A stretch of 64,000 nucleotides of DNA from Branchiostoma floridae (Eukaryota; Chordata; Leptocardii; Amphioxiformes; Branchiostomatidae), in assembly GCF_000003815.2 (NCBI RefSeq), contig NC_049991.1, positions 1,843,718 through 1,907,717 on the forward strand, in the 5' to 3' direction. The notes beneath the pieces were generated by a model that was given only the letters and a program-made list of their open reading frames with translations, made no database searches and was not told the origin of the DNA. The position numbers and the translations under genes were made by a program. Shown here one piece after another: positions 20,516-46,200 of the stretch (position 1 is its first letter; each line of letters begins with the position of its first letter).

Positions 20516-21076
20516 ATGATGGACTACGAGCTGGAAGAGGATAAATTGTAAGAGAATTCGGACACCTGTTATGCATTTTTATTATCCGCCCCTCCCCTTT
20601 GTTGTGATAACCTATGTGATGTTTCTTTACCTGGGATATTCCTACCGAACCAGGATGCGACCTAGGTTATAAAGTTTATTCCTAACAGGACTAGATAATG
20701 CTTCTTTGCTTGATGTGCTACAAAGCATATCAAAGAAGAAGAAAGAAGAAAGCTATTGCCTATAATTGGGTTCGCTTAAAAGGCTGGGCTGTCTACCAGG
20801 CCAGGCTACTTGGCCTGTCTACCTGGCCTGGCTATCACGTCAGGCTACTCAGATCCCCCCATTCATAGCCCCATCATATGGCACTCAGCCAAAATAGCTG
20901 ATTGACAGGCATAGTAATTGCTGATCTCCAACCCTGCTAGTGCCAGTGACCCAAGGTTGCCCTGTCCACCACTGGCTGGGCCCTTCGGGAATGTGTCTGG
21001 GAGGCCTTGCAGCATGTCAGGAACACAAGTACCAGCACTGTGTTTGTGTCTATTTGTTGGTGTGTAAATGTGTGTG

Positions 21077-21123
<47 letters not shown>

Positions 21124-24100
21124 ATGCCTCTGTGAAAATTCAAGCGTCTCAGACGGCGAAACGCCGTTTGCGACAACCGTCCAAGGCGTCTTAAATTATT
21201 GGGACGCTTTGGACGGTTACGGCGGCGGACGGCATGGGACGGGCTTTTGAACGCCCGACGAAACGTCCAAGACGGTCCGAACGGCATAACAAACGCTTGG
21301 ACGCGTCTAGATTGGCACTTTAGACGCGTCCGGTCGGACGTTCGGGACGTCCGAGACGGCGTCTGAAAGCGGGCAGCCGGACGCTCCCGCGCTCCGTCGG
21401 GCGGGCCCCCCGCTGGGAACAGACGTCTCTGCGGACGGACCAGACGCCGATTGCGACGGACGTAAATGACGTAATCCAGGCTGCTGGGACGGATCGGACG
21501 CCGGTTGCGACGGGCATAAACGGCGTAATCCAGGCCGCTGGTACGGGCGGTAGCCTCCACCACGCCTTCCCACGGGGGGTACAGATCGTAAAATTCGACA
21601 GAAAATGGAATGAAAGGCCAAGAGGCTGTCATCGCTATATTATTAAAGGTTACTCTCACCTCTCAAATAAACGTACCGGTACGTTTATTTTTTTCCGCCT
21701 CAAAATCCACCCGGTACGTCCTTATTTTAGACGGTACGTTTATTTTTTTTTTCAAATTGGGGCTTTCTTTACTAACCAGGGACCCCAAAAATATTGAAAG
21801 TTTGGTATTTTCTGCCCATATTTCCGCTGTATTTTTGCTTAATATTCACTATTTTTCGGACGAGGCATCGCGGATTTCCCTGCCGCTAGCGCTATGACCC
21901 AAACCAAGGAGGTTGAAACCTCCTTGCCCAAACATAACTAGGGATGCGTACCGGTACGCAGGACCAGTTCTGGACTTGCAAAAACGTTTTGGTTCAGGTC
22001 CAAAAATAGCGGAACACAAGTGATTCGGTACTGGACTCGTAAAAAAATATATCCTTTTCGTTTAAGACCATCTTTAACCTTCCAAAAATCTTGAAATGTT
22101 GCGCTGAACAAAGACGAAAACATCGAGGTCACATGCTACACACACAGTCGCTTACTTCCGTAAATTCTCTATCAAAACACAGAAATGAACCACCAAACAA
22201 ACAAATTAAAAAGTTACCAATACTTTTCCACTATTTTTCACCCGTAGTCAACTTGTTTTAATGTTCCAGCAACGAAAAAATCATTCCAAAACAAAGCATA
22301 GCGTTCAATCGGCTCGAAAAGATCCGCCATGTTGGATTCATCAACTCACGCCGAATCTCGCGGTAATGCGCGAGAGAATCATATATTTTCTGCAGTACCC
22401 GTATTTCTCGATAGGGGGCAGTGTCTATGACCTTGGTTTCTGCAACATTGAAAATAGCACAAGTGGTGAATAAGGTAATTTAAGTTGGAATGTTTCTTCA
22501 AAATGTTATTTTGTAACAATGATTATAAAATAAACTTCTTTTTTTATTTCTTCAATTTTTATTTTCAGTCATTTTTTTACTTTTATTTTAATCTTTGTTG
22601 ATGGTGTGACACTCAGATAAAGAAAATATGTGCAATAACATGGGAATTATTCTGTTCATTATTTATACAATTAACTGATATGGTAATAAAAGATAAAAAA
22701 TAAAAAATAACTGATATGGTACTGAGTCATAAATAAATAAAAAGAGCCTACCTGCTTATCATCTTCTCTTGGACTGAAGTAGCATGGGCACAGTTTACAT
22801 GTCAATTTGGTAATTTTCCGGGGGGTACTTTTATTCCAGGGGGTACTTTTATTAGATTTTGAAGATTTGTCCGGGGGGTACTTTTATTCCAGGGGGTACT
22901 TCTATTTGAGAGGTGAGAGTAATATCTGGGCCAAACTCCTAGCAAAATATTTTTTCTTCAAGACACAGTTTTAGTTTGTCAGGCAGTACGGTAGAAACTC
23001 ATAACGGGCCGGTGCATTTAATTTGGAACGTGCGTAGACGGCTGCCCGGACGTCGTTTCTGACGCCGTCCGGTCACGGCTATAATTTTATGGCCTGTTGG
23101 GACAAGCGTTGCCGGCCACATACCAAACAAACAAATATTCAGCCAGGCAGTGAATTGTAGAAGACCACCCACCACCGGGCCGTCAGGTTTAGCTAAAATC
23201 AAACACAACTTGAACAAATTTCTTCGTAAATTGTTTCCACGTACTCCGCGGCATTTAATCAACTTTGCTACATGTACGAAATTCAATCCGGCCTTCAATC
23301 GTGTCCGCGGCTTTTTGTGCCGCCGTGCCGACACGTTACATCAGAATGGACGAGCCCACATAACATCAAGGGTAAATACAGGACGTTTGAAATTTTCTAT
23401 CGTAAATTTTAATTGCACCAGTATTTGCTAAAGACTGGATATATAAATGTGAAATAACGTTAAATTTTCTACAAAGATCATAAGTCATTTTTTTTATTTC
23501 GAGGTAGCGAAATAAAGTCTTCCGTTTCATAAGTTCCTAACCCCAAGTAGTTGGAAGAGCCGACTAAGATTTTGATTGGCACCGGCAAAATCGGTAGGTG
23601 CTATCTCATTATCTGTTGTCTAAATCTACATTTTAACAGCATTATCATTCTTAATAGAAACCACAGATATTTTTTACAAGTATTCTACAACGTGTTCATA
23701 ATTCTTTTTATTTTGTGGCATCAAAACAAGATCCTAAATTTTATCATTTCTTCGCGTATGTGGGGAGGGCACCCGTAACAACAAGTCGTCGGTAAACTTT
23801 GCAACAGATGAATGTACAAAAAATTAGAATAAAATGCGAAGTATTCACTTACCGGCGCCTGCAAAGTATCGACAATCAGCTAACGGAAGAACCGCTGCTT
23901 CTTTTGACGTCTGTCACATCTGTGATTTCTGCTGTCCAAGGTTTGCTGCTTCGAGTAAGTAGTATAATTTTTCCCCCTTGTCGGCGCACGACAAATACTT
24001 TTGGTACATGTACATTCTTTTTAGTATAAATAACGGATACAGTCATCGCCGTAAACCCAACCTCAGCACAATGTCGTACAAACATCAGCTGCTACGTCTA

Positions 24101-27100
24101 GACGTGAAGTCCTTGGTCCAAAAGTGCGCAAAATTTAACAAACGGACATGAAATCCACAGAAATAGTCACCTTCTGAACATAAGTCCTGCAACCGCCGGA
24201 GTGTTCAACGGTCTGAAATTCGAATTCACCCGCTGTAATTGGCGCATGTGCAGAAGTTAAAACGTCATGTTTCCCGTGGGGATTATAAGAAAAGACGCAG
24301 CCGTCTGCCGGCGTCGGGTGACTAAGTATTTTATAGCCCCATCAGTGGCCGTCTCCGACGGCAATGGAAGGTCTTTCAGCCGTTCGGCCGTTCACCATAA
24401 AATCTGACAGAACGGCACGGACGCTCACGATGTGTCCGCGGCCGTTTCGGACGGCAATGAACGCGTCCAGAACGTCTGAAACGCGCTCGGACGCCATTGG
24501 ACGCTTGTAGACGCCGTCCGGGCAGTTTCGGACGCTTGAATTTTCACAGAGGTGGGCTTGCCAGCAACAGAAATTTGTTTCTTTATTGAATATCTATCTT
24601 CTAGAACAGAAACTATCTCAGCTTGTGCAACAAGAAGGGAGAGCATAAATCACTTGCTAGTATGCCATGTTGACATATACAATCTTAGTAGTCACATAGC
24701 ATTTTTGAGGCTGTGGATTGTTATTCACTGTACAATTTTTGTGTCCAGGACAGAGCCCAATCCTCTCCTTCCACTGCCAACAATCTCTCCAACCCCCTTG
24801 TACAAGTTGGAGTGGGGAAAGTACTGTTAACAGCACAGATTTCGTGACATGTCAAAGGATTTGAACCCAGGACCTCTGTTTTCTAGGTCTAACACCCTAA
24901 AGCATTTACCGAACACAGTACTGGTACAGTACTTGAATGTGTTCCTGACAGCTGCAAGGAAGGCCTCCCAGACACATTCCTGAAGGGTCCAACCAGTGGA
25001 CAGGCCAACCTCAGGGCACTGACAGGGTTGAAAATTAGCAATTACTATGCCTGTCAATCAGCTATTTTGGCTGAGTGCCACATGATGGGGCTATGAATGG
25101 GGGGATCTGAATAGCCTGACGTGATAGCCAGGCCAGGTAGACAGGCCAGGTAGCCTGGCCTGGTAGACAGCCCAGCCTTTTAAGCGAACCCCCAATAATT
25201 TGTAATCGGAATTATTTCATGGTGTGCAAAAATGATAGATTTTTATTACATTCGTTGCTGTGTCAGAATGATAGTACTTAGTGAATTGTGGAGAGCCTTT
25301 GTATTGTAGCATAACATAGCATGTTTCTGCAATACAATAGAACCTTTCAATGACGGGTAAAATCTCATTTTTTCGGTGCTTCTCGTCATTTTTGGTAACA
25401 CAGAATACTGTAAATCTTGACATATTAGTGGTTTGTATTTTCACAGTTTTCATGACACTGCAAACTTGCGTTAAATTAACAATATCACTAACTTACGAAT
25501 TGTTTCAGGCAAACTCAAAGCACTGACTGAGAAAACCTTTTTTTTCCTTTATTCCCCACAAGATGAAAGGAATATTGCAGTTACAGTCAGAAATGAGTAA
25601 AAACTGGCTCTTCGGATTTGAACCCATGCCAAACCCAGGCCACCAGATCACAAACCCAGCACGCTAAACCGCCAAAAGCTCAGAGCCCTTGGCGTGGTCA
25701 TTTTGGCGGTGCTTGAACCCCACTGACATAACACTTATTCAATTTTTATCTCAGGGCTCGAAATTCTTCCGTTTTTGAGGCTACCAACTTCAATTTGCTG
25801 AAGACTTTTGTAGCCTATATAGGAAAGTCGTGTAAAGTGCCTTTCCCAAGGGCACAAGATCGGTGACACGGCGGGGTTTGAACTCGGGACCTTCTGGACC
25901 TGAGTCAAATGTGCTGCCGATTGCGCCACGCGGTCCCACTAAATTCATTTTGGGGATTAGGTGCACCACTTAAATTTAAGCAGAATGTCAGAAAAATCTA
26001 AAAACAAAACTTAAGTTACATGCTATCAATTCTTAAACAAGTACAATGACAGACATTTTTATTATCTTTCTAACACCCAGATGTTATAATATGATGTATA
26101 CTAGTATACTTTGATATCTTTACATACAGAAAGCCAAGATAATAGTTGGGTGCACCCTGTGCACCCACAGAAAATAATTGGGTGCACAGCTCCAATTTTG
26201 GGTGCACCTGGGTGCACATGCACCCAGTATTTCGAGCCCTGTTATCTGTATATTATATTGTACAATGAAAGCTTACCGTTCACTGTTATCTTTTTCAGGG
26301 GGATGCAGGCCATCCCGGGGAGTGTAACCCTTGAAAAGGACAGCCAGAATCTTATTGGGATCAGTATAGGGGGCGGGGCTCCGCTCTGCCCCTGTCTGTA
26401 CATCGTGCAGGTGTTCGATAACACGCCCGCCGCCAAGGAAGCCACGCTGGAGTCTGGAGACGAGATCGTTGGCGTGGGCGGGAAGTCAGTCAAGGGGAAG
26501 ACAAAAGTGGAGGTGGCCAGACAGATCCAGGCTGTGAAGGTGGGTTAGAACTAAGATGGTCACATTTCTCGTAGGTCGTCTTGCAATTTTAAATGGAAAG
26601 GTTGTCCCAAGGCCGTTGGGGCAGTGGGTAATGTTATCCAAAGTGTCTAGGACATGGAATTGGAAGGCAGAGCCTATCCCTCTCCTCCCACCACCTTTAC
26701 CTCCCTAACCAAAGTAACCCCCTTTTACACCTGGGTAGAGCTTTTACACCTGAGTAGAGAAAAACAAGAAACAAGATCGGTAGCATGACAGCATTTAAAC
26801 CCTGAGGATCTCTGGCAAACACGCTGCAGTTATGCCACAAAACCCCACAGATCCATGTAGACCAGATTATGATGTTTAGCATTTTTAATAATAGGTTGGG
26901 GTATTGTGCGCGAAAAAAAATTTGCGCATATCTTTGTCAAAGCCATTTTTAATAAATGTGCTTCTGTATGGTTTGTTACAGGGTGAAGTGACAATCAACT
27001 ACAACAAACTGAAGGCAGATCCCAAACAAGGAAAGACATTGGACATAGGTAAGAGTCATTAATTCATCTCAGAAGTCTTCCTTCGTTTACATTTTTTACA

Positions 27101-30100
27101 GGGCTACAGAATCAGAAATGGATACTGTCCTATGCACAATTTGGTGCAGGAAAGGCTTTACTTTAAACTTTTATGTAAGAATGAACTGTTCAAAAATCAA
27201 AGATTGCTCCTTGCACTGTAGTAGCTTTATGATGGCAACATTGTTTTATTTTAAAAGAATGTTGTTGTTGTGATTCCCAGTGTTGAAGAAAATCAAGCAC
27301 AAGTTTGTGGAGAACATGAGTTCCAGTACCGCAGATGCCCTGGGGTTGAGCAGAGCCATCCTCTGTAATGGTAAGGAAAAAAAAAATTATAGTCAAACCT
27401 GGAAAAGTAACCACACCTGGCCACTTTTTCATTGTCCCTTAAATGATTTTTTCTGATTGACACAAGAACTAAGAATCCTGTCTACAGTGTCTGCCTGTAG
27501 GGCTGTGTACCTAGATACCTGTACCTGTATCGTACCTAAACAAACTAAATCACTATTAAACACTACTTTTTAAGACTGATGGACAAGTAAATCTGCCTGT
27601 GTATAGGTAACAAACATACTGTAACATTGTCCAGTGGTTGACGATCCAGCCTTTGGAACTAGAACCATGAGTTCAACTTTGGCTATGTCTTTCACCAAAC
27701 ATACATATGCAGAAATGTTCGCGGTGGATTAATGTTCGCGGTTTTTGCGGCGGCCGCTTCGCCGCAAATTTTAAAACCACCGCTAACATTTTTCCACAAT
27801 AGTAAGAGACTACAGTGCATGTTGCTACCGCGAAATTAAAACCACCGCGAAAAGTCCATTTTCCCGCTACCGCGAAATTAAATCCCCGCGAACTTAAATG
27901 CATTTACAGTATACACCACCACCAGAAGGTTCTTATGATGAGATGTTAAGCTGTGGTCTACTGTTCATTTAGCTTGTCAAGAAAAAGGGTAATTCCCGCC
28001 ATGCAAATTGTACAATGAACCTGTTATAGTGTATAATTATTACCTCCATGAAATGTCATGGAATGGAGGTTATATTTTCTGTTATGTGTCTCTGTCTGTG
28101 TAGATGATTACTCAAGAACGGCTGGATGGATTGGTTTCATACTTGTTGTGTTGGTGGGGTGTGATGAAAGCTCGAATCGATGAGATCTTGGGAGCCGTAT
28201 CTGTCGTTATAATCGATGTAATAATATCAGAAATCACCCCTATATTTGAGATATATTGGTACAGGCATCGTGCTGTATGTGTTTGTTAATGGGCTTAGCT
28301 GCAAGCAGATAGTGAGGTGACAGCTGTTTGGGGAGCCCCCAGTAGTTTTATTTATGTCTGCTTAGGACTGTTTGAAATATTTGTAACAGTTGGCACAGTA
28401 GTTACCTCCATGAAATGTCATGGAGGTTATATTTTCTGTTATGTGTCTCTGTCTGCGTACAAGATTACTCAAGAACGGCTGGATGGATTGGTTTCATACT
28501 TGTTGTGTTGGTGGGCTGTGATGAAAGCTCGAATCGATGTGATTTTGGGCGCCGTATCTGTCGTTATAATCGATGTAATAATATCAGAAATCCCCCCTAT
28601 ATCTGCGATATATTGGAACAGGCATCGTGCTTTAAGTGTTTGTTAATGGGCTTAGCTCCAAGCAGATAGTGAGGTGATTTGTATGACAGCTGTTTGGGGA
28701 ACCCCGAGTTTTTTGAATATGATAATTAGTTTTATTTATGTCTGCTTAGGATATCATGGAGATGTGAAGCGTAAGTATAATTGTAAGAAGTTGAGGTACA
28801 TTTAACAGTAATGCTTAACAGGTATGGATGTCTCACATACTGTACTGCTGATTTGAGTGATATGGTGATTAAAATGCCATTAGGTCCTCTCATCTTAGAT
28901 GGGTTGGGTGTCAGAAGTTTTATGGGCGATACAGATGTTCTGATTTCGTTACGATAAGGGACAGTTGTTAGTTGTCTCTTTCGTAGCCAATGGTCTTGTT
29001 TTTTAGCAGACGGGGTTGGCGCCAAGTATTCATCTTACAGTTGATGTAGGGCTATCAGAGGAAAGTGTGCATCTCATTTTTGTACCGTGTGAACAGCTGA
29101 TGTTATGACATATTGGTGGAAAATCAAATCACCATCTGACTAAAGTTGGCCACATCCCTTCTTCTTTCTGAGTTTCCCAACTTCCTCCCACCACACCGCT
29201 CTGAGGCACATAGTCGAACCTCAATAATGCTGACAACCTTAGACAGTTTAAATGCCAAACATCAAGCCAAAGGAACACCACGCTACCATATGCCGTCGAC
29301 CTCTTCAACGCACATTACACAATAAAGTGTCACATTTTAATAATTACTAATCAGATGGACATCCTCTGTGTCATTAAATAAATACACCAATACTTTCCCA
29401 TAACATTTATAACCATTACTCTCAAATACAACCGACTATAAACATACATACCGTCCACAAAAAAGCAATAAATATTTCATGGAGGTATGAGGTCCCCGAA
29501 CTCTAGTTATGCATATACTGTACATCGCATCTGTCCTCTCTGTCATGACCAATAGAAGAACAGCTCTTCAGACAGCAGGGCTCGAAATACTGGGTGCATG
29601 TCATGAGGTGCACCCAGGTGCACCCAAAATTGGAGCTGTGCACCCAATTATTTTCAGTGGGTGCACATCTGCAGGGTGCACCCAAATATTTTCTTACGTT
29701 TATGTATGTAAAGATATCAAAGTACACTAGTGTACATCATATTCTTGACATCTTGGTGTTAGAAAGATAATGAAAATGTATGTAATGGTACTTGTTTAAG
29801 AATTTGATAGTTTGTAACTAACTTTTATTATTAGGTTGTTACTTAAATTTTAGTGGTGCACCTAAAATTTTTTTGGTGCACTCAATTTTTTAAGCTGGGT
29901 GCACCAGTGCACCTAATCCCAAAAATGAATTTCGAGCCCTGTTTTCATTTAGCTTGTCAAAAAGAAATGGGTAATTCCCTCCTTGCAAATTGTACAATGA
30001 ACCTTTTAGTGTATATTATGCATGTACTGTACATCGCATCTGTCCTCTCTGTCATGACCAATGGAAGAACACCTCTTCAGACAGTGACACATAGACCAGA

Positions 30101-31150
30101 TCATAATGTAATCATTTTGGACATTTTTGACTGGACTGCTGTATCTTTGTCCTTGTTAGGACTAGTTTAAGGCTTTAGGCTGAATTGTAATTAAGTTGCT
30201 AACAATGGATATACCATTACCATGACTTGTAAATAAATGAAATGAAATGTACATGAGGCCAGCTTAAGAGAGTGATTTGGGTGAGCTAATATCAGGTGAA
30301 AATGTGTATGTGAGAGTGTTGAGAAGTTTTCGTGATGTGAAGCTTATGAGAGAATTTTTTATGATATAAAGCCCATTTCTGACTCACTTGAGATTTACAT
30401 TGATAAGTGCCCAACACAACCATACTGATCTTGGCTGATTTTGATCTTGTGTAATACTTCTTGTACTAGTAGTACATAAGTTATGCCTGGTATTTGTATA
30501 GCCATATCAAGTGTGATACAAAATGTACTATGTGATGTGTATGTAAGCACATAAGATCCGGTTCAATGGCAGGGTAGTAGGACAGAAAAACATGTACAAA
30601 ATGTACGTGATTAATGTGTCCAGAAAGTAGGTTGGGGTCAGTCAGGGGACACAGTATGCCCTGCAGTGATGTTTGGTCACTTTTCCACAGAAGATTTGTC
30701 CTTGGAACCAGGCTACCAGATTACTCCTTAGTTCTATACCCAATTTACTGTTCTCTAGACTAAGTTGATGTAACCAAAAGTCATTCTGCAAACTGAGAGA
30801 TTGTTTAAAAGTGATTTTTTTTTTTAAATACTGTAAATGCATTTAAGTTCGCAGGGATTTAATTTCGCAGTAGCAGGAAAAAGGACATTTTGCGATGGTT
30901 TTAAGCTCGTGGTAGCACCATGCACTGTAGTCTCTTACCGCCATGGAAAAATGTTCGCGGTGGTTTTAAATTTGCGGTAAGGGGCCACCGCAAAAACTGC
31001 AAACCTTAAACTTTTTTTAAACCACCGCAAAAGTTTCTGCATTTACAGTAAGCACAAATGACCTATCCTTGTTATTCTTGGGCAACGTTCTCGGCTTGGA
31101 TATAATTACCTCCATGAAAAAATGGAGGTATAGTTTTGAGTGTGTCTGTG

Positions 31151-31181
<31 letters not shown>

Positions 31182-34100
31182 CTGTGTGTCCGCATATTTG
31201 TGGTCATCATAACTTGAGAACCTCTTGATGGACTACGATGATATTTGATATGTAGGTAGGGGTTGGGAAGACGAAGGTCAAGGTCAATTTTGGGCCCCCT
31301 GGTGTGTGGCCTTGGTACTGCAGCGCAACTTCCGGTTTTGCCATCTTGGTGTTCTGAACATGCTATGGTCAAGATTTTTAAGTATTAGATAGCTCTTGTG
31401 CTCAGGAAAAAATTACGTACGTTTGGGCCCCCTAGCGTCTAGTTTGGGGATAGCAGGGGCATTTTTGTCAAAAACTTCTGACGAGGATAACTCAAGAAGG
31501 GAATAACGGATTTTCATGATTTTTGGTATGTAGGTACCTTAGACAATGTTGTACAAGATTAAATACTAATTATGCAAAATAGGTGTACATTTGCATAATT
31601 AATGAGGATATCATATCCTGGCAGTTTTTTCAATGTATCTCTTGTCCTGGATGTGATATGGTCTTGACATTTGGCTGGTAGATAGCTTGCAGTGTCATGA
31701 CAAAGTGGGGCAGGTTGCAGCCCCCTAAAATTTAATTTCGGAACTGCAGGGGCGTTTTTGTCAAGACATTTTAAAGAGGATAACTGCAGAAAGGATTGAT
31801 GGATTGGCATCATATTAGGCATGCGGGTACCTTAGGCAAAGATGTTCATAATGATATACATTTTATGCAAATGAGGACTTAATTTGCATAATTAATGAGG
31901 AAATTGTATAATTCCATTGTTTTCAATAACTGGACTTCAATAAATGTAATACATGTTAACTATGTAGGTGGAATATAAGCAGATACCAAATATGGTAATG
32001 AGGAACTTATTTGCATAATTTATGTAAAAATTGCAAAAACGCTTTATGATTAATAATGGGAATTTTATAATTGTGACATGTGTACGTTAATCAATGATGA
32101 AAAATACCATGCATAAATTATGTTAATTTGTTAGTCAATTGCATGAAATTTACGAAAGCTCTAAATTTTCATGGAGGTATGAGGTCGCCGAACTCTAGTT
32201 GTTGTTGTTTTTAAATTTAGAATGTAGTCTTGCTATTTATATAAAAAAGGCAGACTGTGTTGAATGAATATTATTTTGACTTGTATCAATTCTGACTCAT
32301 TCCACAGATGGCCTAGTAAAGAAACTGCAGGACCTGGAGAGAACAGCAGGCATGTACCATGGTCTGGCTGAGCACACCAAGAAGATGATGAGAGCCTGCT
32401 ATGAGCTGTCACAAACACATAAAGGTGGGGGTGACTGTGTTATACTTATGCATCTAGATTAACTCAAAATATGATAGGTCAAAGAATGTACAGTACATGT
32501 ATACATGTAGAATTTTGGGATAGGAATGGCTTGGGAAAGGATTCTTGTAGGCATTCTTGTAAGAATTATGGTACATAAGAATTGTCTTTTGCACAACCAG
32601 TTTTTCTCACCTGCTGATGTTTCGATGTCTGTCAGACATCTTCCTCGGAGCTTCTAACTGGAGTTCTGCTTCTCGCCGCTATATGTAGCTGGTGAGAAAA
32701 ACTGGTTGTGTAAAAGAAAATTCTTATGTCTTATGATCTACCAACCTGATGAAATTAATTTCAGAAAAACTATGGTAAATAGAAGTGAACAAAAAGTAAA
32801 CATAATACTGCACCATGTATTACTATTAGGTTGCTGCTGTAGTTCTTGATTTGTTAACGGTATACACTTGTACACATGTATATCCACATAGCAGTTGGGC
32901 ATAAGTACAAAATGTAGTGCATCACAGTACTGTACTTGCTTGTAGGGAGGGAAAATTTGAAAAATTCACCTCGTCTGTCTAAAAAAAACTGAAAAAAGAT
33001 GACTGAAACTGATGAATGTACTTGCCTAAGCTTGTAAAATATCATTTAGGTTTAACAATAAAAATCACCAAGTTGCTGACAGAGAAAAATCTAAAGTTTG
33101 AGTCAGCCCTGTAAATAGAATTTTGAATCATTGTAATCCAAGGAAATTTTTCTGAATGTGTTTTTCATATCTAATGTGTTCAAACTTTGTGTTGATTTGT
33201 ATTTGAATTTACCCCTTTGCAGCATTTGGAGATGTGTTTTCAGTGATCGGTGCCCGTGAGCCCCAAGTCGCTGCTAGCGAGGCATTCACAAAGTTTGCCG
33301 AGGCCCACAGGTAACAGTGTACTGTGTGGGGTGGGTACAGTGAGTGTACAACACACCTCACTGAACTAACCATCCTTCCTCAACTACTAACCACTGTTCT
33401 TATTTACATCAACACACCATTTACACAGCAGCAGCAGATACTGTACATGTTCCCATCCGAGGCCACAGTGATTCCATTGTATGGATGACGTCATCTGGGC
33501 TCACGAAAACCGATGCGAGTGTGCAAGAAAAAAAAGTTGGGCAAAAAAAAAGTTGCCTTCATTATGAATATGACCTAAGCTGTCTGGGAGGCTGAAAAAA
33601 ATAACTGAACACATTCAAATTTTGTACATTGTAGGAAAATAGGCAATTTATCATTAGTATCGATTTTCCTATGTTGTTTAGGCAATTTTTAGTTCGTTCA
33701 TTTGATAGCATCTTGGTATGATCTACTGTAATGGTATAGTTGCAATTTTTTTTGGGGGGACAAATGAATTGATGTGTGTGCAGATGTCATCCATGTAATC
33801 AAATCATTGTCGCCTAACTTTGGGAACACACTTACACAGTCAAGTCACTCTTTGTCTCTACTAACACCCCGCATGCTTTCCTTACCCTTTGCTGGTGTTT
33901 ATCACATATAGAGTTTGGTGATGTGTTTTGTGATGTGGGGATGCGAGAACAAGTGGCCGGTGCTAACGAGGCTTTCCTGGCCTTTGGGGAGGCCCAGAGG
34001 TACACACAACATTAACACTGCTTCATCATCTGTCACATCTACACTGTACTTAGTCTTACTGTCTCTGAACTATGCTCTTCTTAAGGCCACACCAATTTAA

Positions 34101-37100
34101 TTTCTTGGTTCACGGATTTTTTCATGAAAAATAGGGAGCGAGAGGGCGAAATAAAAATAAAGATAAAAATTGTAAAATGGTTGGGGTAAAGGTAAGGTCC
34201 AATCCAAAACATATAGGATAAAAAGTTTTCAGCTTGAAAAAGTACAAAAACACTATTACTGTACAGTAACAGCACCTGTACCCACACTTTAAGGAGCTTA
34301 TAATATAAAGGTCAATTTGCTACACCAGAAAGTTGGTGAATTGTTTCATTAATGGTGAAAATTTGCTGAGTGGTAATTTTTTTTTTTTTTTCCAAAAATT
34401 GGAGCGAGCGAATCGGTGAACCAAGAAATTAAATTGGTGTGGCCTAAAGTAGGTATTTCACTGGGTTGTGTCTGTTGGCGACAGTTTGCTAAAGACATTC
34501 ACTAACAGTTGCCAACACTTCTGCAAATGTTTTGCTATAAGGCACCAATTGGTTACATGAAATGGCAAATATTTTAAAAGTCTAAAAAAAATCACAATTT
34601 TCAAAATTTAAAAAATGGCCACGATCACTGCAAGTCTCTTTTTGATGAATCTTAACCAGTGTTTGTCGGTTTCTAATTCAGTGGCAACACTGATTTCTAT
34701 TGAAGTTATCTTGAATCTGATTTGGGGCCAAAAATGAGGAATCCGATGTGACATTCTGGTTGCAGCCATTTTTTTTGTGAAGGTCACATATTTTGCAAAC
34801 GTGTCGCATGTCAGTGTGACAACAATTGGCGAAAAATTTGCAAAGTTGCGGCAAGAGTTTGTCGCCAACAGGCGTGGCCCAGTGAGGTACTTATTAGTAT
34901 GCAGAAATAGCATTTATGTGGAACCCAGGACTTACTTACTTGACTTCATGTAGATCTTTTGTGGAGGTTTTATCCTCACAGTTTCTGCGATGACCTCTCC
35001 CCATTGCAAATTCATGACATGTTCCTAGTTTTCTACTGTACTACAGAACTGTTTAAACTGCAAACTTGAAACAATGCTAACTAGCGCTAAAACCTCATTT
35101 TTCCTCCTACTGCAAAAGTAAAAACAGAATTTGGTTGATACATTGTAGAGCTAACTCTCTCCCATAATTCTTCTTTGATTTGTCACGACTGCCCATCAAA
35201 ACTTGCTATTCCTGCGTTGGTTCATATACCCAAGAAAGTCATTGTTGCTATACATTTAGTCATGAAATTGAAGCCCTGGTGAACTTCTTCCACTAGTCTT
35301 TGACTCCCTTATCTTGGAGTGGGATGATACATGTAGATGCTACTGCTAGCATGTAAGACTTTATAGTGTAGATTAATGTATAGCTTGGTATAGCTTTGTT
35401 AACATGAACCAAAAACACTTCTGATTTACCCATAAAGCCATTTTATTGATATAGTTTTCATTATCAAGAGTGTGACTGATTGCCAATTAAAAAAATTGTT
35501 TTGAGAGCCTTTAAAATTTATGTTTTCCTGCCATGATTCCTGTCCCCTTTTTGTTGACTTAATTAAATGAATCCCTGTAGTTGTGATTCTTTGGAAGTTT
35601 TATTTCAAGTTGTCTTGTTTTCCACAGAAACATGGAGAAATATGGCATCCGATACCTGAAGACTATCAAACCAGTAAGTCATGATTGTCAACTTCCTATC
35701 TTTGTAGTTTGCTTATCATTATCATTTTGTGGTACTGAAATTCAACAATATTTGATTATTTTCACTCACTCAGGTATTCATTGTCAAAGATAGTAAAAAG
35801 TCCCATAGCCTAAGCCAAGTGGTCAATATCATAAATGATTTATTCACAGTCATATTTCCCCCCCTAACAGATGTTGAGTGACCTGAACACCTATCTTAAC
35901 AAGGTTAGTATTTACCTGAAAAATTACACATTAGAACCAAATAACAAAAACATTATGTAGCTTGCGAGGTGTCAGAACATAATGCAAATTTTGCACTTCT
36001 TATTCCAAACTCATATGTGACTTTTTATTTTGTGAAACACAGGCAGTCCCTGATACCAAGCTGACTATCAAGAAGTACCTGGATGCCAAGTTCGAGTATC
36101 TGGTGAGTGAACATAATCCCGTTATTTTTCAGTCATTTTCATTGTTAGCATTACCCCTTCCCATCAGGAGATGTATCATTGATACTGTAAATGTTGAAAG
36201 TTTTGTGGTGGTTTTATCTTCATAGTTTTGTGGTGTCCAGTCTTTACTGCAACTGTGAAACCACTGCAGAACACCCTTTTCTGCCTGCATACCCAGTTGT
36301 TTCAACTGCAAACATAATGCATTTTAATGTATCGTACATTTAAGTAATATATTTAATATTGTGTTTTTTTACAGTCCTTCTGTCTGAAAGTGAAGGAGAT
36401 GGATGATGAAGAGTACAGCTATGCTGTAAGTGCAACCTGCAGTGAAAGTTAAAGTGAAAGTGATTTCAATGTATATCAGGCGAGCGACAACAGCTGGGAT
36501 TCAAACTCATGACCCCTTGGTCCAGAAGCAGAGATCACTTATATATAACCCATGGACTACGCATGCTTTACATGCATAGAAAGAAAACAGAATTACTTGA
36601 GTTTTTCTGCAATCTGATTTATTTCTGCATTGTACTATTCACAATTCTACAAACATTCATGCCTTAGCAGCATGCTTGGTAATCTAATATGATTTTGGTG
36701 CAAGAAAGTAACCACTAGTACTACGTGTAGCACTTAAATCAATTTTCAACTGAAAACTAGGTTTGACTATAGCCATGAAGTGAAAGAGTGAACATAAAAT
36801 CCAAAAACCTTTGAGTATGATTTATTTTCTCTTAACAGGCATTACAAGAACCCCTGTACAGAGTGGAGACGGGTAACTATGAGTATAGGTAAGGTTTTAT
36901 GCCATCTGTGTTTAACATCTTCCCTGTAAAGCACTATTAGTATTACTTCTCCTTACATAAAACCCAAAGGGTAATGCTTGCAAGGAAGTGTAAGGTACAG
37001 TAGAAGCCAGTTAATTGCACATCGGATTAACGCACACTTCTGTTAACTGCACGGAATCCCCAAATCCCAAACAGGTTCAATTCAGCTAGGTAACTTCGCA

Positions 37101-38529
37101 CTATTGCACAATCCGGATAATTGCATGAAATTCACTGGCAAATAGGCCGTGCAATTAAGTGGCTTCTACTGTATTTTGTAGCTCAGATAATGGAATGCAC
37201 CTGTGCTAATGCTTGCTTAACAACATTTGACAGGTGCCAGCATTTCCAATAAACAATTTTTCATAGATACAGAATGCTTTACACTGTAAAGTTATATCAT
37301 CCTGAAACCATAATGTTGGAATGAAACCTTTTTTTGTAGGTTGGTTCTGCGATGTCGTCAGGAGGCCAGGGCCAAGTTTGCCAAGTTACGTGCTGATGTT
37401 TTGGAAAAGATCGAACTACTGGACCAGAAACATGGTGGGGTTTTGTTTCATTTCATTTTGGATCTATTTTCCAAAGGGATAGTCCTAATAGATAGCATTC
37501 GCTATGATCTTTCATCAGTGTCTGGAAATGTGTGGCTGAAAGATTTGATTTTTTATGCACGGAATTTATTCATTTAGGATAAATTCCATTTTAGACAGCA
37601 TGTAGTATCTTTCACAGTGACTTAGAATAAGTGACTGAAAGTTTTGACTCTTTACATTACCAAAAAAGTTTTTTTTCTTGTTTTTTTACCTCGTTGTAAT
37701 TTCATACATGGAAGATATTCTCAACGAACGAAAATAAAGAAGAAAGTAGAAAAAAAGAAACTGAAAGCCAATGACCGAAAGACTCTTGAGAATTTACCCA
37801 CTTCCTTAATTTGTCTCGTATTGCATACTGCTAATGTTCTACCTGAATGTCCCACACTCGTCAACATTTCTTTAACAAGATTTTGAAAATTATAACTTTG
37901 GCTGCATACAAAAGCCTTGCCAACCTGTGAATAGTTTCATCAGGTTGGTACATCACGAAATAATAAGACTCTTTTTACACAACCTTTATTCACACCAATG
38001 TTTTGGAGACCGCCTGTCACCTTCAGTGCAATTCTGACTGGTTCACATTGTACTGCAGGACAGGTGTCGCTGCTGATAGTTCAGAATCACAAAATTATTT
38101 ACAGACAGCTTTATGCAAAGAGCAGCAACACCTGTCTTGCTGTGCAATGTGAACCAGTCAGAATTGCCCTTAAGAAGGTTGGTGAGAATAAAGCAATGGT
38201 TGTGTAAAAAGAGTTTCTTTATTCAGTGACGTACCAACCTGATGAAACCATTCACGACAGTAAGTGTTGCTGCAAACAGAAGCCTTACCCAGTTTTACCC
38301 CACCTCTACAGTACAAGACATAGTGTTCCAGCTACAGCGGCTGGTGTCGGCCATGGCCAAATATCACAACGACTGTCACGCCATCATGAAGGAGACAGAC
38401 GTGTTCCCCATCGAGGTGGACCTATCACAGACCACCTTCAACTACTCCAAACGGGACGACTTCACGGACCCAGATGAAGATGAAGATGAGGGTGAAGAAG
38501 AGGATGTAGGGTCGGGTGGGGACGAATGA
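20516..38529 (+). CDS. PICK1: PICK1: PDZ + BAR domain scaffold (13 coding exons)
   Basis: Exons 20516-20547, 26299-26539, 26982-27048, 27281-27370, 32308-32424, 33223-33310, 35628-35673, 35871-35903, 36043-36102, 36375-36425, 36839-36888, 37340-37434 and 38312-38529 join in phase to 395 residues (human 415). The N-terminus MMDYELEEDKLG parallels human PICK1. The PDZ domain spans about residues 18-100, with KD at 24-25 and carboxylate loop IGISI at 30-34. The CPCLYIVQVFDNTPA segment follows. The BAR domain runs about 140-350 and the tail is acidic (DEDEDEGEEED). PICK1 is a peripheral membrane protein that binds receptor C-termini (AMPA receptors, monoamine transporters, PKC alpha) and senses or bends membranes via BAR dimers in endocytosis and vesicle biogenesis. 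Either of two start ATGs in tandem could be used. Introns total about 17 kb and hold most of the mobile DNA in the window. An alternative version of exon 6 lies at 33912. Confidence 0.96.
21066..21119. repeat. (GT)n microsatellite
   Basis: About 25 TG dinucleotide units with two interruptions. It lies at the inner edge of the outer element's left arm, directly before the second-level element. Confidence 0.9.
21127..24552. mobile_element. Second-level, CG-rich DNA transposon
   Basis: CCTCTGTGAAAATTCAAGCGTC at 21127 is the inverse of GACGCTTGAATTTTCACAGAGG ending 24552. Both ends are followed by hundreds of bases dense in GACG/GGACG/CGTCC motifs (21140-21560 and 24290-24540). The left flank includes a duplicated block, GACGTAATCCAGGCTGCTGG-like at about 21470 and 21515. 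The density of CG words creates long spurious open frames. No transposase is evident. Confidence 0.7.
21648..22925. mobile_element. Third-level DNA transposon
   Basis: GTTACTCTCACCTCTCAAATA (21649) and its inverse TATTTGAGAGGTGAGAGTAA (to about 22922) bound 1.3 kb inside the CG-rich element. Subterminal repeats differ: GGTACGTTTATTTTTT on the left and GGGGGTACTTTTATT (three copies) on the right. It is AT-rich, in contrast with its host element, and includes a short CpG-rich patch at 22320-22460. Confidence 0.65.
24740..24915 (-). mobile_element. tRNA-derived SINE, minus strand
   Basis: On the minus strand GGGTGTTAGACCTAG...AGGTCCTGGGTTCAAATCC has a B-box-like GGTTCAAATCC. The following body and CTTTCCCCACTCC tail match the other SINE copies (25775-25940, 53200-53375). 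It lies in the right arm of the outer transposon. Confidence 0.5.
25752..26241. mobile_element. GTGCACC-family MITE, copy 1 (with SINE inside)
   Basis: CAGGGCTCGAAAT at 25752 and ATTTCGAGCCCTG at 26229-26241 are terminal inverted repeats. The interior carries repeated GGGTGCACC words on both arms. A SINE (25775-25940, minus) has inserted near the left end. The right end is only about 57 bp from PICK1 exon 2. Confidence 0.7.
25775..25940 (-). mobile_element. tRNA-derived SINE with clear A and B boxes
   Basis: Read on the minus strand it begins GGGACCGCGTGGCGCAATCG (A box TGGCGCAATCG), then B box GAGTTCAAACCCC, then the conserved body TTGTGCCCTTGGGAAAGGCA typical of several animal SINEs. It is the best-preserved SINE in the window. 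Confidence 0.75.
27625..28005 (+). mobile_element. SINE split by a palindromic MITE
   Basis: The head (GTCCAGTGGTTGACGATCCAGCC...GAGTTCAA, 27629-27680) resembles the SINE at 4262. The tail (GCTGTGGTCTACTGTTCATTT and AAATTGTACAATGAACCT, to 28005) continues after an inserted hairpin at 27703-27911. The same tail also flanks the MITE ending at 29941. Confidence 0.5.
27703..27911. mobile_element. Palindromic MITE, ACTGTAAATGCA family, copy 1
   Basis: Left ATGCAGAAATGTTCGCGGTGG and right CCCGCGAACTTAAATGCATTTACAGTAT pair imperfectly. The interior is a string of GTTCGCGGTGG/CCACCGCGAA words. The element at 30829-31050 is the same family in the opposite orientation. Confidence 0.65.
28035..29510. 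mobile_element. ACCTCCATGAAA-family element with internal tandem duplication
   Basis: The left end TTACCTCCATGAAATG and right end TTTCATGGAGGTATGAGGTC...CCGAACTCTAGTT match those of 31106-32203. The left 330 bp is duplicated in tandem (28040-28320 and 28402-28690; both contain ACTCAAGAACGGCTGGATGG and CATCGTGCT). It is in PICK1 intron 4. Confidence 0.65.
29576..29941. mobile_element. GTGCACC-family MITE, copy 2
   Basis: CAGGGCTCGAAATACTGGGT at the left and AATTTCGAGCCCTG at the right delimit 366 bp with repeated GGTGCACC on both arms. The interior segment GTATGTAAAGATATCAAAGT is shared, inverted, with 25752-26241. Confidence 0.75.
30829..31050. mobile_element. Palindromic MITE, ACTGTAAATGCA family, copy 2
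   Basis: TACTGTAAATGCATTTAAGTTCG on the left and TTCTGCATTTACAGTA on the right are inverted repeats; the central TTCGCGGTGGTTTTAAA resembles the 27703 copy. Confidence 0.7.
31106..32203. mobile_element. Complete ACCTCCATGAAA-family element, 1.1 kb
   Basis: The ends TTACCTCCATGAAAAAATGGAGG and TTTCATGGAGGTATGAGGTCGCCGAACTCTAGTT bound it. It contains a (GT)n run (31138-31190), two diverged copies of a roughly 280-bp module (GAGGATAACT...GCGGGTACCTTAG...TTTGCATAATTAATGAGG at 31489-31610 and 31777-31900) and several TTTGCATAATTAATG words. It is non-coding. It ends about 100 bp before PICK1 exon 5. Confidence 0.7.
32566..32745. mobile_element. Hairpin MITE, CACAACCAGTTTTTCTCACC arms
   Basis: GCACAACCAGTTTTTCTCACC at 32593 pairs with GGTGAGAAAAACTGGTTGTG at 32691; the flanking ATAAGAATTGTCTTTTG and AAAAGAAAATTCTTATG also pair. 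Related in outline to the 42187 element. Confidence 0.65.
33223..33310 (+). CDS. PICK1: PICK1 exon 6a (BAR domain)
   Basis: This 88-bp exon encodes FGDVFSVIGAREPQVAASEA and the following FTKFAEAH, which is the version closest to vertebrate PICK1. The left border is CCCTTTGCAG, the right border AG/GTAACA. It starts in phase 1 and ends in phase 2. Confidence 0.9.
33912..33999 (+). CDS. PICK1: Candidate mutually exclusive PICK1 exon 6b
   Basis: Exactly 88 bp, bounded by CACATATAG and AG/GTACAC, in the same start and end phases as exon 6a. It encodes FGDVFCDVGMREQVAGANEA then FLAFGEAQ: 15 of 28 whole-codon residues match exon 6a, no stops. The two exons cannot both be used: joining 6a to 6b gives a TGA after two further codons, and skipping both also shifts frame to an early TGA. 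Hence each is compatible only alone. The acceptor is weaker than that of 6a. It could also be a decaying duplicate, but an intact frame, equal length and both splice sites argue against this. Confidence 0.7.
34084..34445. mobile_element. AGGCCACACC-family MITE, copy 2
   Basis: Ends as in 10001-10447, with AGGCCACACCAATTTAAT at both termini in inverse orientation. It starts 84 bp after exon 6b and lacks about 80 bp present in copy 1. Confidence 0.75.
34450..34895. mobile_element. GGCGACA-family MITE
   Basis: GTATTTCACTGGG...TGTTGGCGACAGTTTGC on the left is mirrored by GAGTTTGTCGCCAACAGGCG...CCCAGTGAGGTAC on the right. Related right ends occur at about 43610-43670 and 51535-51570. It directly abuts the preceding MITE. 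Confidence 0.6.
36996..37174. mobile_element. MITE with ACAGTAGAAGCC ends
   Basis: TACAGTAGAAGCCAGTTAATTGC and GCAATTAAGTGGCTTCTACTGTA are inverted ends about 175 bp apart in PICK1 intron 11. A fragment with AAAAGCCATTTAACTGCACGG occurs at about 5430. Confidence 0.7.
37937..38248. mobile_element. MITE with CATCAGGTTGGTAC ends, copy 1
   Basis: TTTCATCAGGTTGGTACATCAC and GTGACGTACCAACCTGATGAAA bound about 310 bp; CTCTTTTTACACAACC and its inverse lie just inside. It ends 64 bp before the last PICK1 exon. Copy 2 is at 42181-42524, with relics in the polycystin gene at 61380-61860. Confidence 0.75.
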
Positions 38530-39289: not shown

Positions 39290-39588
39290 TATTTACCTGT
39301 GTGGACCTATAATGACCTGTGCATTGTGTTAAATTCATTGAGTCCATCGAAAGCATGCAAAGGTCATTGTTCGTATTCCTAATGTCCATACTCCTACCAG
39401 CCTGCCAAAGAAATTTGGACACAGGCCAGATCAACCTTGGCATCCTGCTCAGTTACAACTCAGCCTAGGAGCAAATTTGAATCAATGCCAAGTGGAAACA
39501 AACTGGGACATACACACGAGACAAACAAATCGAGAACAATAGATAACAGTCAATCACAATAGTTTAGTTAAACATTTATCATGTGATA

Positions 39589-39940
39589 AGGCCACATCAA
39601 TTTAATTTCTTGGTTCACGGATTCGCTCCTATTTTTTGGAAAAAAAATAAAAATAAAAATTACCTCTCAGCAAATTTTCACCATTAATGAAACCATTCAC
39701 CAACTTTCTGGTGTAGCAAACATAAAAACTGACACTACTTTTGTAATTTTCAATGAACAGGTGCTGTTTCTGTACAGTAATTGTGTTTTTGTACATTTTT
39801 CAAGCTGAAAACTTTTTATTCTTTATGTTTTGGATTAGCCCTTACCTTTACCCCACCATTGTACAATTTTTATTTCGCCCTCTCGCTCCATATTTTTTAT
39901 GAAAAAATCTGTGAACCAAGAAATTAACTTGGTGTGGCCT
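39589..39940. mobile_element. AGGCCACACC-family MITE, copy 3
   Basis: Inverted relative to the other copies, with AGGCCACATCAATTTAAT at the left and TTGGTGTGGCCT at the right; the interior matches copies 1 and 2 in reverse. Confidence 0.75.
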
Positions 39941-43285: not shown

Positions 43286-46200
43286 ATGTGTGTACACGTG
43301 TATGTGTGCGAGGGTGTGCGCGCGTGTGTATGTATGTGTCTGCGTGCACGTGTGTGCGCGTGTGTGTGTTTGTGTGTGTTATGTCGCTAATGGTCCCAAA
43401 TTAGTCGTTATAGCATCGCTGCAAATCTCATTTTGATTCTCGATCATTGTGATTATGTTTTAAATCAATATTAATACTGCGATTTCCAACAAATTCATCA
43501 CGAGCCGAACCTGATAAAGTGAAATTCCGGACGTGGTCATTTTTTTTCGTAGCGGTCACGTATTTTACCCATGCGTCGCACGTAACGCTGTGCCCGCAAG
43601 AGAAAATCGCAAAGTTGCCGCAAAAATTTGTCGCCAGCAGGCGCAGCTCAGTGAGATACCCGCTTTAGTCATTACATATTGTACGACAAATAAACGCAAG
43701 TAGTATACTAGAAAGGCAACATTTTTGAAAAAAATGCAGGATGTGGGCGAAGGGAAAAGAAAGCAAAAATCGCAGGAAAAGAAGCAACAAGAAAGGCAAC
43801 ATTTTCGCGAAAATGCAGCAAAAAGAAAAAAAAATTAAAAAACATTGTCTGTCCACGGATTCGATCCCGGAGCGTTGGCTTACCACGCGTGAATAATCCC
43901 ATTGAGCCAGTGCTACAACATGTTACGAGCGCACGTTTTAACAGGTATGGAAATGTATTGCGTTGCTTGAAAAAAACCGCGAGCTTCCGCTGGCTATTTT
44001 TCTCGCTTATAATCGAAGGTATTTCATTAAAACTTGGACAGAATACTAGAATATTTTTTGTGGGGCATTTTTATGTTGTTATTTAGCCGATTAGATGCTC
44101 TGAACTTGCTGCATTTTCAACGTTTTTGTGATACTGCGCTGCCGAGTGCCATTTTGTGACCTGTGCGTTGATAGGTTTACCCCTGACGTATCCACCAGGC
44201 AGTCAGAATGTTAGCCAATCAAAAAGCTGGAAACGTGGACTGCATGCTACAGGTTCCATTTTTTCTGAGTTTTGATTGGTCGGGTGGAATATCTGTAGAG
44301 AATACTAAATGTGTGGCTTCGCCCACATTATGAAGATCAACACATGTATAAGGATGTGGGGGAAACATGTAATGACATATACACTGTAAAGTACCTCACG
44401 AGTGTTGGGAATGGGTGGACGGTCAGGCTTCGGTTGTGAAGTTGTGATCTTGCTAGATGGAGGTGACGTCTTATCCGTCACCCTGAACATTGTCTTGAGA
44501 CGATGGATCATGAAGTCTGTCAGTTCATTCTCCTTCCTCAGCCTTCTTACATCATCCTTAAGAACAGCGAAAAAGATCTTGTCATGGCATGAAATGAAAT
44601 ATCTTTTAAATGGAATATAATGGTGACAGTGTAGGTTGTACCTTCTGTATACACGGACATGCTGATACCAAGTGATATTGTATATTGTAGGCACACATAT
44701 TGATATGGTACCTAACTATAAGGTCCAAAGCTGTGTCTCTTCTTCCCAAGCACAATAGCTTTCTATTAACAACAAATCAACACCAAGTATCAAAACCGGA
44801 ATTTCCACTGCAGTAGCCGCCAGAGGGCCAAAATCTAATATTTTTTTCTTCTTTTGTCACAGTCAACAAACTTAAAAAATTGAAACCGATAGCATCCATC
44901 CAGCCGTTCTTGTGTTATGTTGTCACACATGCGCGCACACACGCGCGCACACGGACGCACGCACACACACACACGGACGCACGCACACATATACATACAC
45001 AAATGCTATATTTCACTGACATAATAAATGTCGTACCTTGACGTGTTTGATAGAGTCCACGAGTATAGCCAGGAACATGTTGACCATAACCAGCACCAGT
45101 GTCAGGATGAAGGTCAGCAGGAACACACAGCTCAGCGGACTCGCCTTCAGCACCCAGGTCAGGTCCACGTCACCGAGGAGGATCGCAAACATCATCTCCA
45201 GACTTGCCTATATGTACGTACAAATAACGATATCGGTATAAAAATAAACGTTGCTGAGTTACTGCTTTGAAGTTCTGTAGGGCGGTGCACATTTCCGTTT
45301 CTGTATCCCTTGGGCCACACACATTTATTCAACCATTGCAGCGAGGGGGAATCCACTGGTAGTGTATGCAGTCTGTATGTCGCACCTACACTGGGTGATA
45401 AGCAGAGAAAACAGTACATACAACTTAAGAGCCTTTGGATCGGCCTCGAATCAAACTCACTTCTGGTGAACAATTAATTCATTTCTCTATTGAGCTAGTC
45501 TTTGTTGTTATAGTTCATGTTGTACTACCTAATATGCTAGTGGCACATACGTCACCAAGTCTCCTTGCTTTTGCAGGGAGAGATTGCTAGCCCTTTCCTC
45601 TTTAACGTGCTTGAGGCACCTCGAACATGGAACTCCCATTTTAGATCCCTTCAGGAATACGCTGCAGCCCCAACAGAGATGCCCTTCTCAAGAGTACAGT
45701 ATGGGTCTCCCAGTTACCAACTAATTGTAAGAAAGGAAATAGTTCTTAACGTACCTGAAAAGTCCCAAAGCCTGCAAGGACCGTCCCAAGCAGGAGGTAG
45801 GTAACCTGACAATACGCCAAGAAGATGACGAAAAACATGACGGTGAATTGGACAAGCTCATTGGTCGCCCGTCTGATGACGTAGGAGAGCATGGCCATCC
45901 GTCCGTTAAAGCGCAAGAGCGTCAGGAACTTGACTATGGAGGCGAACACCAAACAGGAAATGACGTAACTGTAGACATCGTTCCACCACGCGGCAGACTG
46001 GAAGTTGACAAAGCCCCCTCTTTCTTTTAACATGTACAAAGCGTCGTTACTGAAAGTCGTTCTTACTCCGTAAAGTACGATGGCCGATACCTCCAATGCA
46101 ATGAACGGTACCTCTACGCAGTTCCAAAAACTTCTGAAATATTCCCTTCTCTTTCGTCTAATTCTCCTTCCCTCTCGTCCAATGAAATACAGCACGAACA

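Follow-up and report, generated by a model that had tools for sequence, protein, structure and literature searches.

The locus described here raises the question of whether a PICK1 gene can build its BAR domain in two ways, by splicing in one or the other of two neighbouring, related exons. The window, that is, the whole stretch of DNA that was analysed, spans 64,000 nucleotides of Branchiostoma floridae, and the gene runs along its plus strand from 20519 to 38529, the stop codon occupying 38527-38529. According to the gene model, which consists of 12 common coding exons and two versions of exon 6 (Table 1), the predicted protein has 394 residues with either version; its N-terminus and its tail are acidic, and between them a PDZ domain is followed by an Arfaptin-type BAR domain. 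When a query starting after the first exon was compared with Pfam, PDZ (PF00595) scored 38.5 bits, and Arfaptin (PF06456) scored 257.4 bits with 6a and 254.0 bits with 6b. Moreover, the PICK1 PDZ chains in the PDB matched the gene product with an E-value of 1.6e-43. The succession of a PDZ domain and an Arfaptin-like BAR domain assigns the product to PICK1, and these matches, together with the exon model, support the sequence-only reading in its naming of the gene and its placement of the two exons within the BAR domain. The peptide of the probable first coding exon matches DLDYDIEED, the acidic Ca2+ site that PMC9201945 gives for vertebrate PICK1. Elsewhere in the window, a polycystin-like gene was observed on the minus strand at 45746-46747 (PKD_channel, 117.3 bits; Polycystin_dom, 107.5 bits), five other open frames had no Pfam match, and no Rfam family reached its gathering score.

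Table 1. Positions in the window of the PICK1 exons and of the signals discussed in the text.
Feature	Positions	Strand	Remarks
Probable first coding exon	20519-20547	+	MDYELEEDK plus split L; donor gtaaga; ranked first in a mechanical scan scored ad hoc
Exon E2, PDZ domain	26299-26539	+	Pfam PDZ, 38.5 bits
Exon E3	26982-27048	+	
Exon E4	27281-27370	+	
Exon E5, common, upstream of exon 6	32308-32424	+	Ends in phase 1
Exon 6a, canonical version	33223-33310	+	AFGDVFSVIGAREPQVAASEAFTKFAEAHR, including split codons
TACTAAC, likely branch point of 6b	33859-33865	+	Consensus match only; adenine at -48, no AG before the acceptor
Exon 6b, diverged version	33912-33999	+	EFGDVFCDVGMREQVAGANEAFLAFGEAQR, including split codons
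Premature TGA when 6a and 6b are both included	33919-33921	+	In the spliced transcript
Exon E7, common, downstream of exon 6	35628-35673	+	Entered in phase 2
Premature TGA when 6a and 6b are both skipped	35657-35659	+	In the spliced transcript
Exon E8	35871-35903	+	
Exon E9	36043-36102	+	
Exon E10	36375-36425	+	Contains the MDDEE site, human 271-274 (site from the accessible part of PMC9201945)
Exon E11	36839-36888	+	
Exon E12	37340-37434	+	
Last coding exon E13	38312-38529	+	Includes the stop codon

Exons 6a and 6b are each 88 nt long, preceded by AG and followed by GT with the splice dinucleotides intact, and both are entered in phase 1 and left in phase 2. They lie 601 nt apart and share 55 of 88 nucleotides and 15 of the 28 residues encoded by whole codons (16 of 30 when the two split codons are counted), so that the lengths, spacing, phases, borders and identity first described for the pair were all confirmed. 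Either exon alone joins E5 to E7 in frame. The proposal that the reading frame forces a choice between them also held, as joint inclusion and joint skipping each run into an early TGA. The arrangement found is hence that expected of an exclusive pair, namely adjacent homologous exons of equal phase and equal length of which both or neither would be unproductive. The resemblance stands far outside chance levels in the window: among all segments of the form AG-88 nt-GT (231 on the plus strand, 6a and 6b included, and 231 on the minus strand), 6b obtained a BLOSUM62 score of 72 when compared with 6a, and the highest score among the remaining 460 was 7. Over 127,828 ungapped placements in the window the mean score was -31 (standard deviation 10.8), with 20 as the next best after 6b.

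We consider it likely that PICK1 is a single-copy gene in which 6a and 6b arose by tandem duplication and are spliced as regulated, mutually exclusive exons. In this model, 6a would be the ancestral, default exon and 6b a diverged copy retained by purifying selection, the latter included probably only where a splicing activator favours it, given the weakness of its splice sites. Exclusivity would be enforced on the output, since transcripts with both exons or with neither shift frame and stop early, presumably ending in nonsense-mediated decay or a truncated protein, and the choice between 6a and 6b would probably be made by trans-acting regulators. The BAR fold should be kept in either form, with the segment corresponding to human residues 186-215 swapped.

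To orient the pair, human PICK1 was used as a yardstick, in a sequence whose numbering fits the residues given in two papers. Like vertebrate PICK1, the amphioxus gene retains the domain order, both acidic Ca2+ sites and, in 26 of 30 residues, the 6a peptide, while the 6b peptide is identical to the human sequence at 15 of 30. At the 14 positions where the two exons differ, the human residue is that of 6a in 11 cases, that of 6b in none and a third one in three, which identifies 6a as the canonical exon and 6b as the one that moved. Synonymous divergence between the exons is about 1.2 (a very rough value from a simple method and 19 sites). We read the duplication as probably of some age, though not clearly older than chordates.

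Several lines of evidence from within this one genome support the view that 6b has been constrained. The two exons can still be aligned with each other, whereas the introns around them resemble one another no more than expected by chance. When 33 random changes were placed on 6a in a neutral simulation, 43% of the products were free of stops, and only 0.5% of these kept at least 15 of the 28 residues. In a 131-residue piece, the Arfaptin score was 148.1 with 6a and 144.5 with 6b, a cost of 3.6 bits, compared with 121.9, 117.3, 112.2 and 124.4 for four neutral controls (a cost of 24-36 bits) and 138.0, 133.2, 131.0 and 139.9 for four controls carrying random residues at the same 14 positions; four of the ten controls made of each kind were scored. 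As 6b exceeds both kinds of control, the positions it has kept and the replacements it has acquired both fit the domain. The comparison of 6a with 6b gave pN 0.30 versus pS 0.59. Less favourable to constraint, the differences fall on the three codon positions as 5/12/16, which is only a mild bias.

The main rival to a regulated exclusive exon, which we regard as unlikely, holds that 6b was once used and selected but is now dying or unused, and that only the 6a protein is made. It draws on the splice sites, which in 6b are the weakest of the gene: when scored with simple frequency matrices, its donor reached 3.2 (others 5.3-10.5) and its acceptor 0.4 (others 1.0-8.9). It also accords with the 11 of 14 differences that lie on the 6b side when the human sequence is the yardstick. 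Weak splice sites are, however, usual in regulated exons as well as in dying ones. Furthermore, the G at +5 is missing only in the donors of 6a (gtaaca) and 6b (gtacac) and is present in the 11 other donors, a pattern expected once in 78 if placed at random, though noticed after the fact; we count this shared absence as a point for regulation. Against decay, 6b keeps an open frame and its splice dinucleotides, and its protein identity and domain score are well above the neutral expectation at such divergence, so that 6b cannot have evolved neutrally over the greater part of its past.

If 6a and 6b are indeed regulated alternatives, the question follows of how exclusivity is kept. Steric hindrance is unlikely, since the intron between the exons measures 601 nt and some 550 nt separate the best branch-point match of 6b from the 6a donor, whereas a distance within about 50 nt would be needed. 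The plus strand of the window contains four TACTAAC motifs, two of them in this intron; the upstream one, at 33385-33391, lies 75 nt past the 6a donor and outside the 65-nt AG-free zone of 6b. Incompatibility of U2 and U12 splice sites finds no footing either, as by inspection neither of the donors gtaacagt and gtacacac looks like the U12 type.

Base-pairing between introns, which the sequence-only reading had put forward as something to look for, showed no excess over shuffled sequences. In each of the seven tests on 6a, 6b and their introns (four involving an exon, with 100 shuffles each, and three between introns, with 20 shuffles each), the global duplex energy was weaker than the mean obtained after shuffling. 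Three pairs from other parts of the gene served for comparison; two of them came out slightly stronger than their shuffles and the third weaker. Likewise, the best ungapped helices in 11 region pairs had P values from 0.075 to 0.98 (200 shuffles each). An 18-nt inverted match pairs 33246-33263 in 6a with 33497-33514, but carries no weight because the best helix between 6a and the intron has a P value of 0.235. Large inverted repeats at 32573-32729 and 34077-34452 were set aside as pairing elements, as they resemble the arms of mobile elements. The former, in the intron upstream of 6a, has 43-nt arms (32573-32615 and 32687-32729) that are 93% complementary and 71 nt apart, and looks like a small inverted-repeat element. 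The arms of the latter (34077-34118 and 34411-34452) are 42 nt long, 93% complementary and 292 nt apart; similar text was seen by eye near 39585-39935, downstream of PICK1, and this repeated element is probably mobile.

Candidate regulator motifs were counted across 32425-35627 and set against the expectation from their density in the window. None stood out: GCATG, which we take as the Rbfox motif, occurred 3 times (2.6 expected), GGTGG and TGGTG, presumably Esrp-like, once (2.6) and 7 times (4.0), and TGTGTG, presumably CELF-like, 3 times (4.6). With steric blocking, U12 sites and pairing unsupported, what remains is the reading frame, by which wrong combinations stop early, together with regulators.

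In the accessible part of a human atlas of such exons (PMC5740500), 377 clusters (60% of 629) contain exons not divisible by three, while the steric rule fits 9% and the U12 rule 0.79% of clusters. Joint-inclusion reads occur in only 22% of the frame-shifting clusters, a low share that its authors take to mean that other mechanisms mostly do the choosing. The amphioxus pair is like these clusters in consisting of neighbouring, similar exons of equal phase, not divisible by three and inside a folded domain, and unlike them in being known from genomic sequence alone. PICK1 was absent from the atlas's main text, and according to the same source many similar neighbouring exons are not spliced exclusively, which counts against the reading as an exclusive pair.

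Lack of a steric bar to joint splicing across the 601-nt intron, and the early stop that inclusion of 6a together with 6b produces, would also suit a poison exon: 6b spliced in beside 6a would bring in the TGA and lower the amount of PICK1, its own peptide being made rarely or never. Such an exon needs neither a frame open between E5 and E7 nor a BAR-like sequence, yet 6b keeps both, and we hold this explanation to be very improbable.

Copy number was assessed across all 431 contigs of the genome (513,431,437 bases). At E<=10, the 6b peptide had no matches there besides itself (E 1.1e-13) and 6a (E 0.049), and the 6a peptide found only itself at E<=0.001. An Arfaptin search of the genome gave eight matches in three places, PICK1, arfaptin (C7) and ICA1 (C176), with one locus found for each. 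Within the window, no convincing second copy of the other PICK1 exons was detected (12 scanned, exon 1 excluded); the seven remaining hits at E<=0.5 were short or weak, the best having an E-value of 0.095. Although amphioxus genomes are highly heterozygous and false local duplications can arise from heterozygosity, we reject the idea that 6b is an assembly or haplotype artefact or the remnant of a tandem PICK1 gene copy, since 55 of 88 nucleotides is much too diverged for an allele, the flanks of 6a and 6b do not align, no further PICK1 exon is duplicated in the window and PICK1 is a single one of the three Arfaptin loci.

For the regulated pair, then, the position of the exon bears on what a swap might do. 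Exon 6 corresponds to residues 186-215 of the human sequence and presumably covers, by homology with arfaptin-2, the end of BAR helix 1, the turn and the start of helix 2. Arfaptin-2 was the only BAR relative found among PDB chains by sequence, with 46.4 bits for 6a and 42.5 bits for 6b, so 6b fits it no better than 6a. The residues kept in 6b are F187, V190, F191, A203, A206, F207, F210 and A213, with the changes mostly between them, which suggests a kept core and a changed surface. The net charge of the segment is -1 in 6a and -4 in 6b. As 6b adds two acidic residues and drops a lysine while keeping the hydrophobic pattern and R197, the swap should tune dimer strength, the preference for PICK1 itself or ICA1 as partner, or the electrostatics at the centre of the dimer.

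R197 lies within exon 6 and is retained in both versions, and the counterpart of R185 is the last residue of E5, a lysine in amphioxus. The accessible part of PMC8884907 deals with R158Q, R185Q, R197Q and R247H, and in its AlphaFold2 model one residue, by elimination R197, is predicted to bridge the BAR monomers. R197Q was carried by one patient with diabetes and one control person; it clustered less and did not restore insulin storage, and was the closest to wild type in biophysical tests (PMC8884907). Dimerisation of PICK1 is controlled by Ca2+ via residues 4-12 and 271-274, both outside the dimer interface, according to the available text of PMC9201945. Both acidic sites are present in amphioxus PICK1, as MDYELEED in the first exon and MDDEE in E10, and retuning of the dimer centre by exon choice would add to the control by Ca2+. 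Of the possible effects of a swap, one at the dimer centre is better supported than the one on PDZ-BAR autoinhibition that the sequence-only reading suggested. A more specific proposal, to which we give little credence, is that exon choice switches the BAR partner, 6a favouring homodimers and the acidic 6b altering the affinity for self or ICA1. Were it true, one gene would set the role of PICK1 in receptor trafficking versus secretory-granule budding; no control of this sort is known for vertebrate PICK1. Should 6b be spliced in, it would offer a natural 14-residue variant of the dimer centre that should still fold, and a ready test of partner choice and curvature of BAR dimers in the region of R197.

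The 6a/6b pair is a new case of a known exon-pair phenomenon in an unexpected gene. It is like the IIIb/IIIc exons of amphioxus Fgfr, an exclusive pair in the same kind of animal, demonstrated by RT-PCR and minigenes in B. lanceolatum (available part of PMC5703972). The Fgfr pair encodes part of a receptor Ig domain, has a homologous pair in vertebrates and is Esrp-regulated (PMC5703972), whereas that of PICK1 lies in a BAR domain and has no known vertebrate pair. A second parallel is OGDH 4a/4b, likewise an exclusive pair, in which a long stretch free of AG precedes the second exon (PMC7969005, as far as its accessible text goes), comparable to the 65 nt before 6b. In contrast to OGDH, the PICK1 zone is longer before 6a itself (78 nt), and whereas OGDH exclusivity stems from branch points near the upstream donor (PMC7969005), the likely branch point here is about 550 nt away from it. 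In the literature searched (mostly open-access, without supplements), we found no second version of residues 186-215 in vertebrate PICK1 and no description of an exon pair in amphioxus PICK1. The statement that vertebrates have one version thus agrees with the literature, though such a search is not proof. A long-read study in pig lists four PICK1 isoforms in its accessible part (PMC11452158). No paper joining a BAR domain with a mutually exclusive exon was found in the literature searched. A regulated swap within the BAR core may therefore be new to the BAR field. Amphioxus may thus produce PICK1 in two forms, where descriptions of the protein usually give a single version of this region.

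The paralogues provide some context for the exon border. The equivalent exon of ICA1 ends, by inspection, at the same position and in the same phase as exon 6 (SSQQ-R), so this border probably reflects common descent; the corresponding stretch of arfaptin is interrupted at another place. No intact second exon copy was found by tblastn within 9.9 kb around ICA1 or arfaptin. One ICA1 hit (L011 3378-3343) was rejected as a second exon, as it is part of an exon-end minisatellite and has no acceptor of its own. On the minus strand of the arfaptin locus (L010 3449-4158), a 63-bp unit in which an acceptor is followed by the first part of the arfaptin exon RVEYDAYRTDLEQL is repeated in tandem about 10.7 times, with 95% similarity among copies. 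Ahead of the genuine exon, seven copies can be read through in its frame, so that splicing to an upstream acceptor could lengthen the arfaptin BAR domain by as many as seven repeats of 21 residues. At ICA1 (L011, about 3260-4000, minus strand), the intron following the equivalent of exon 6 contains several degenerate copies of the exon's end with its donor (GAGAGCTTCTCCAGYCAACAGAGGTAAG) amid CA repeats, a second exon-edge array in this gene family.
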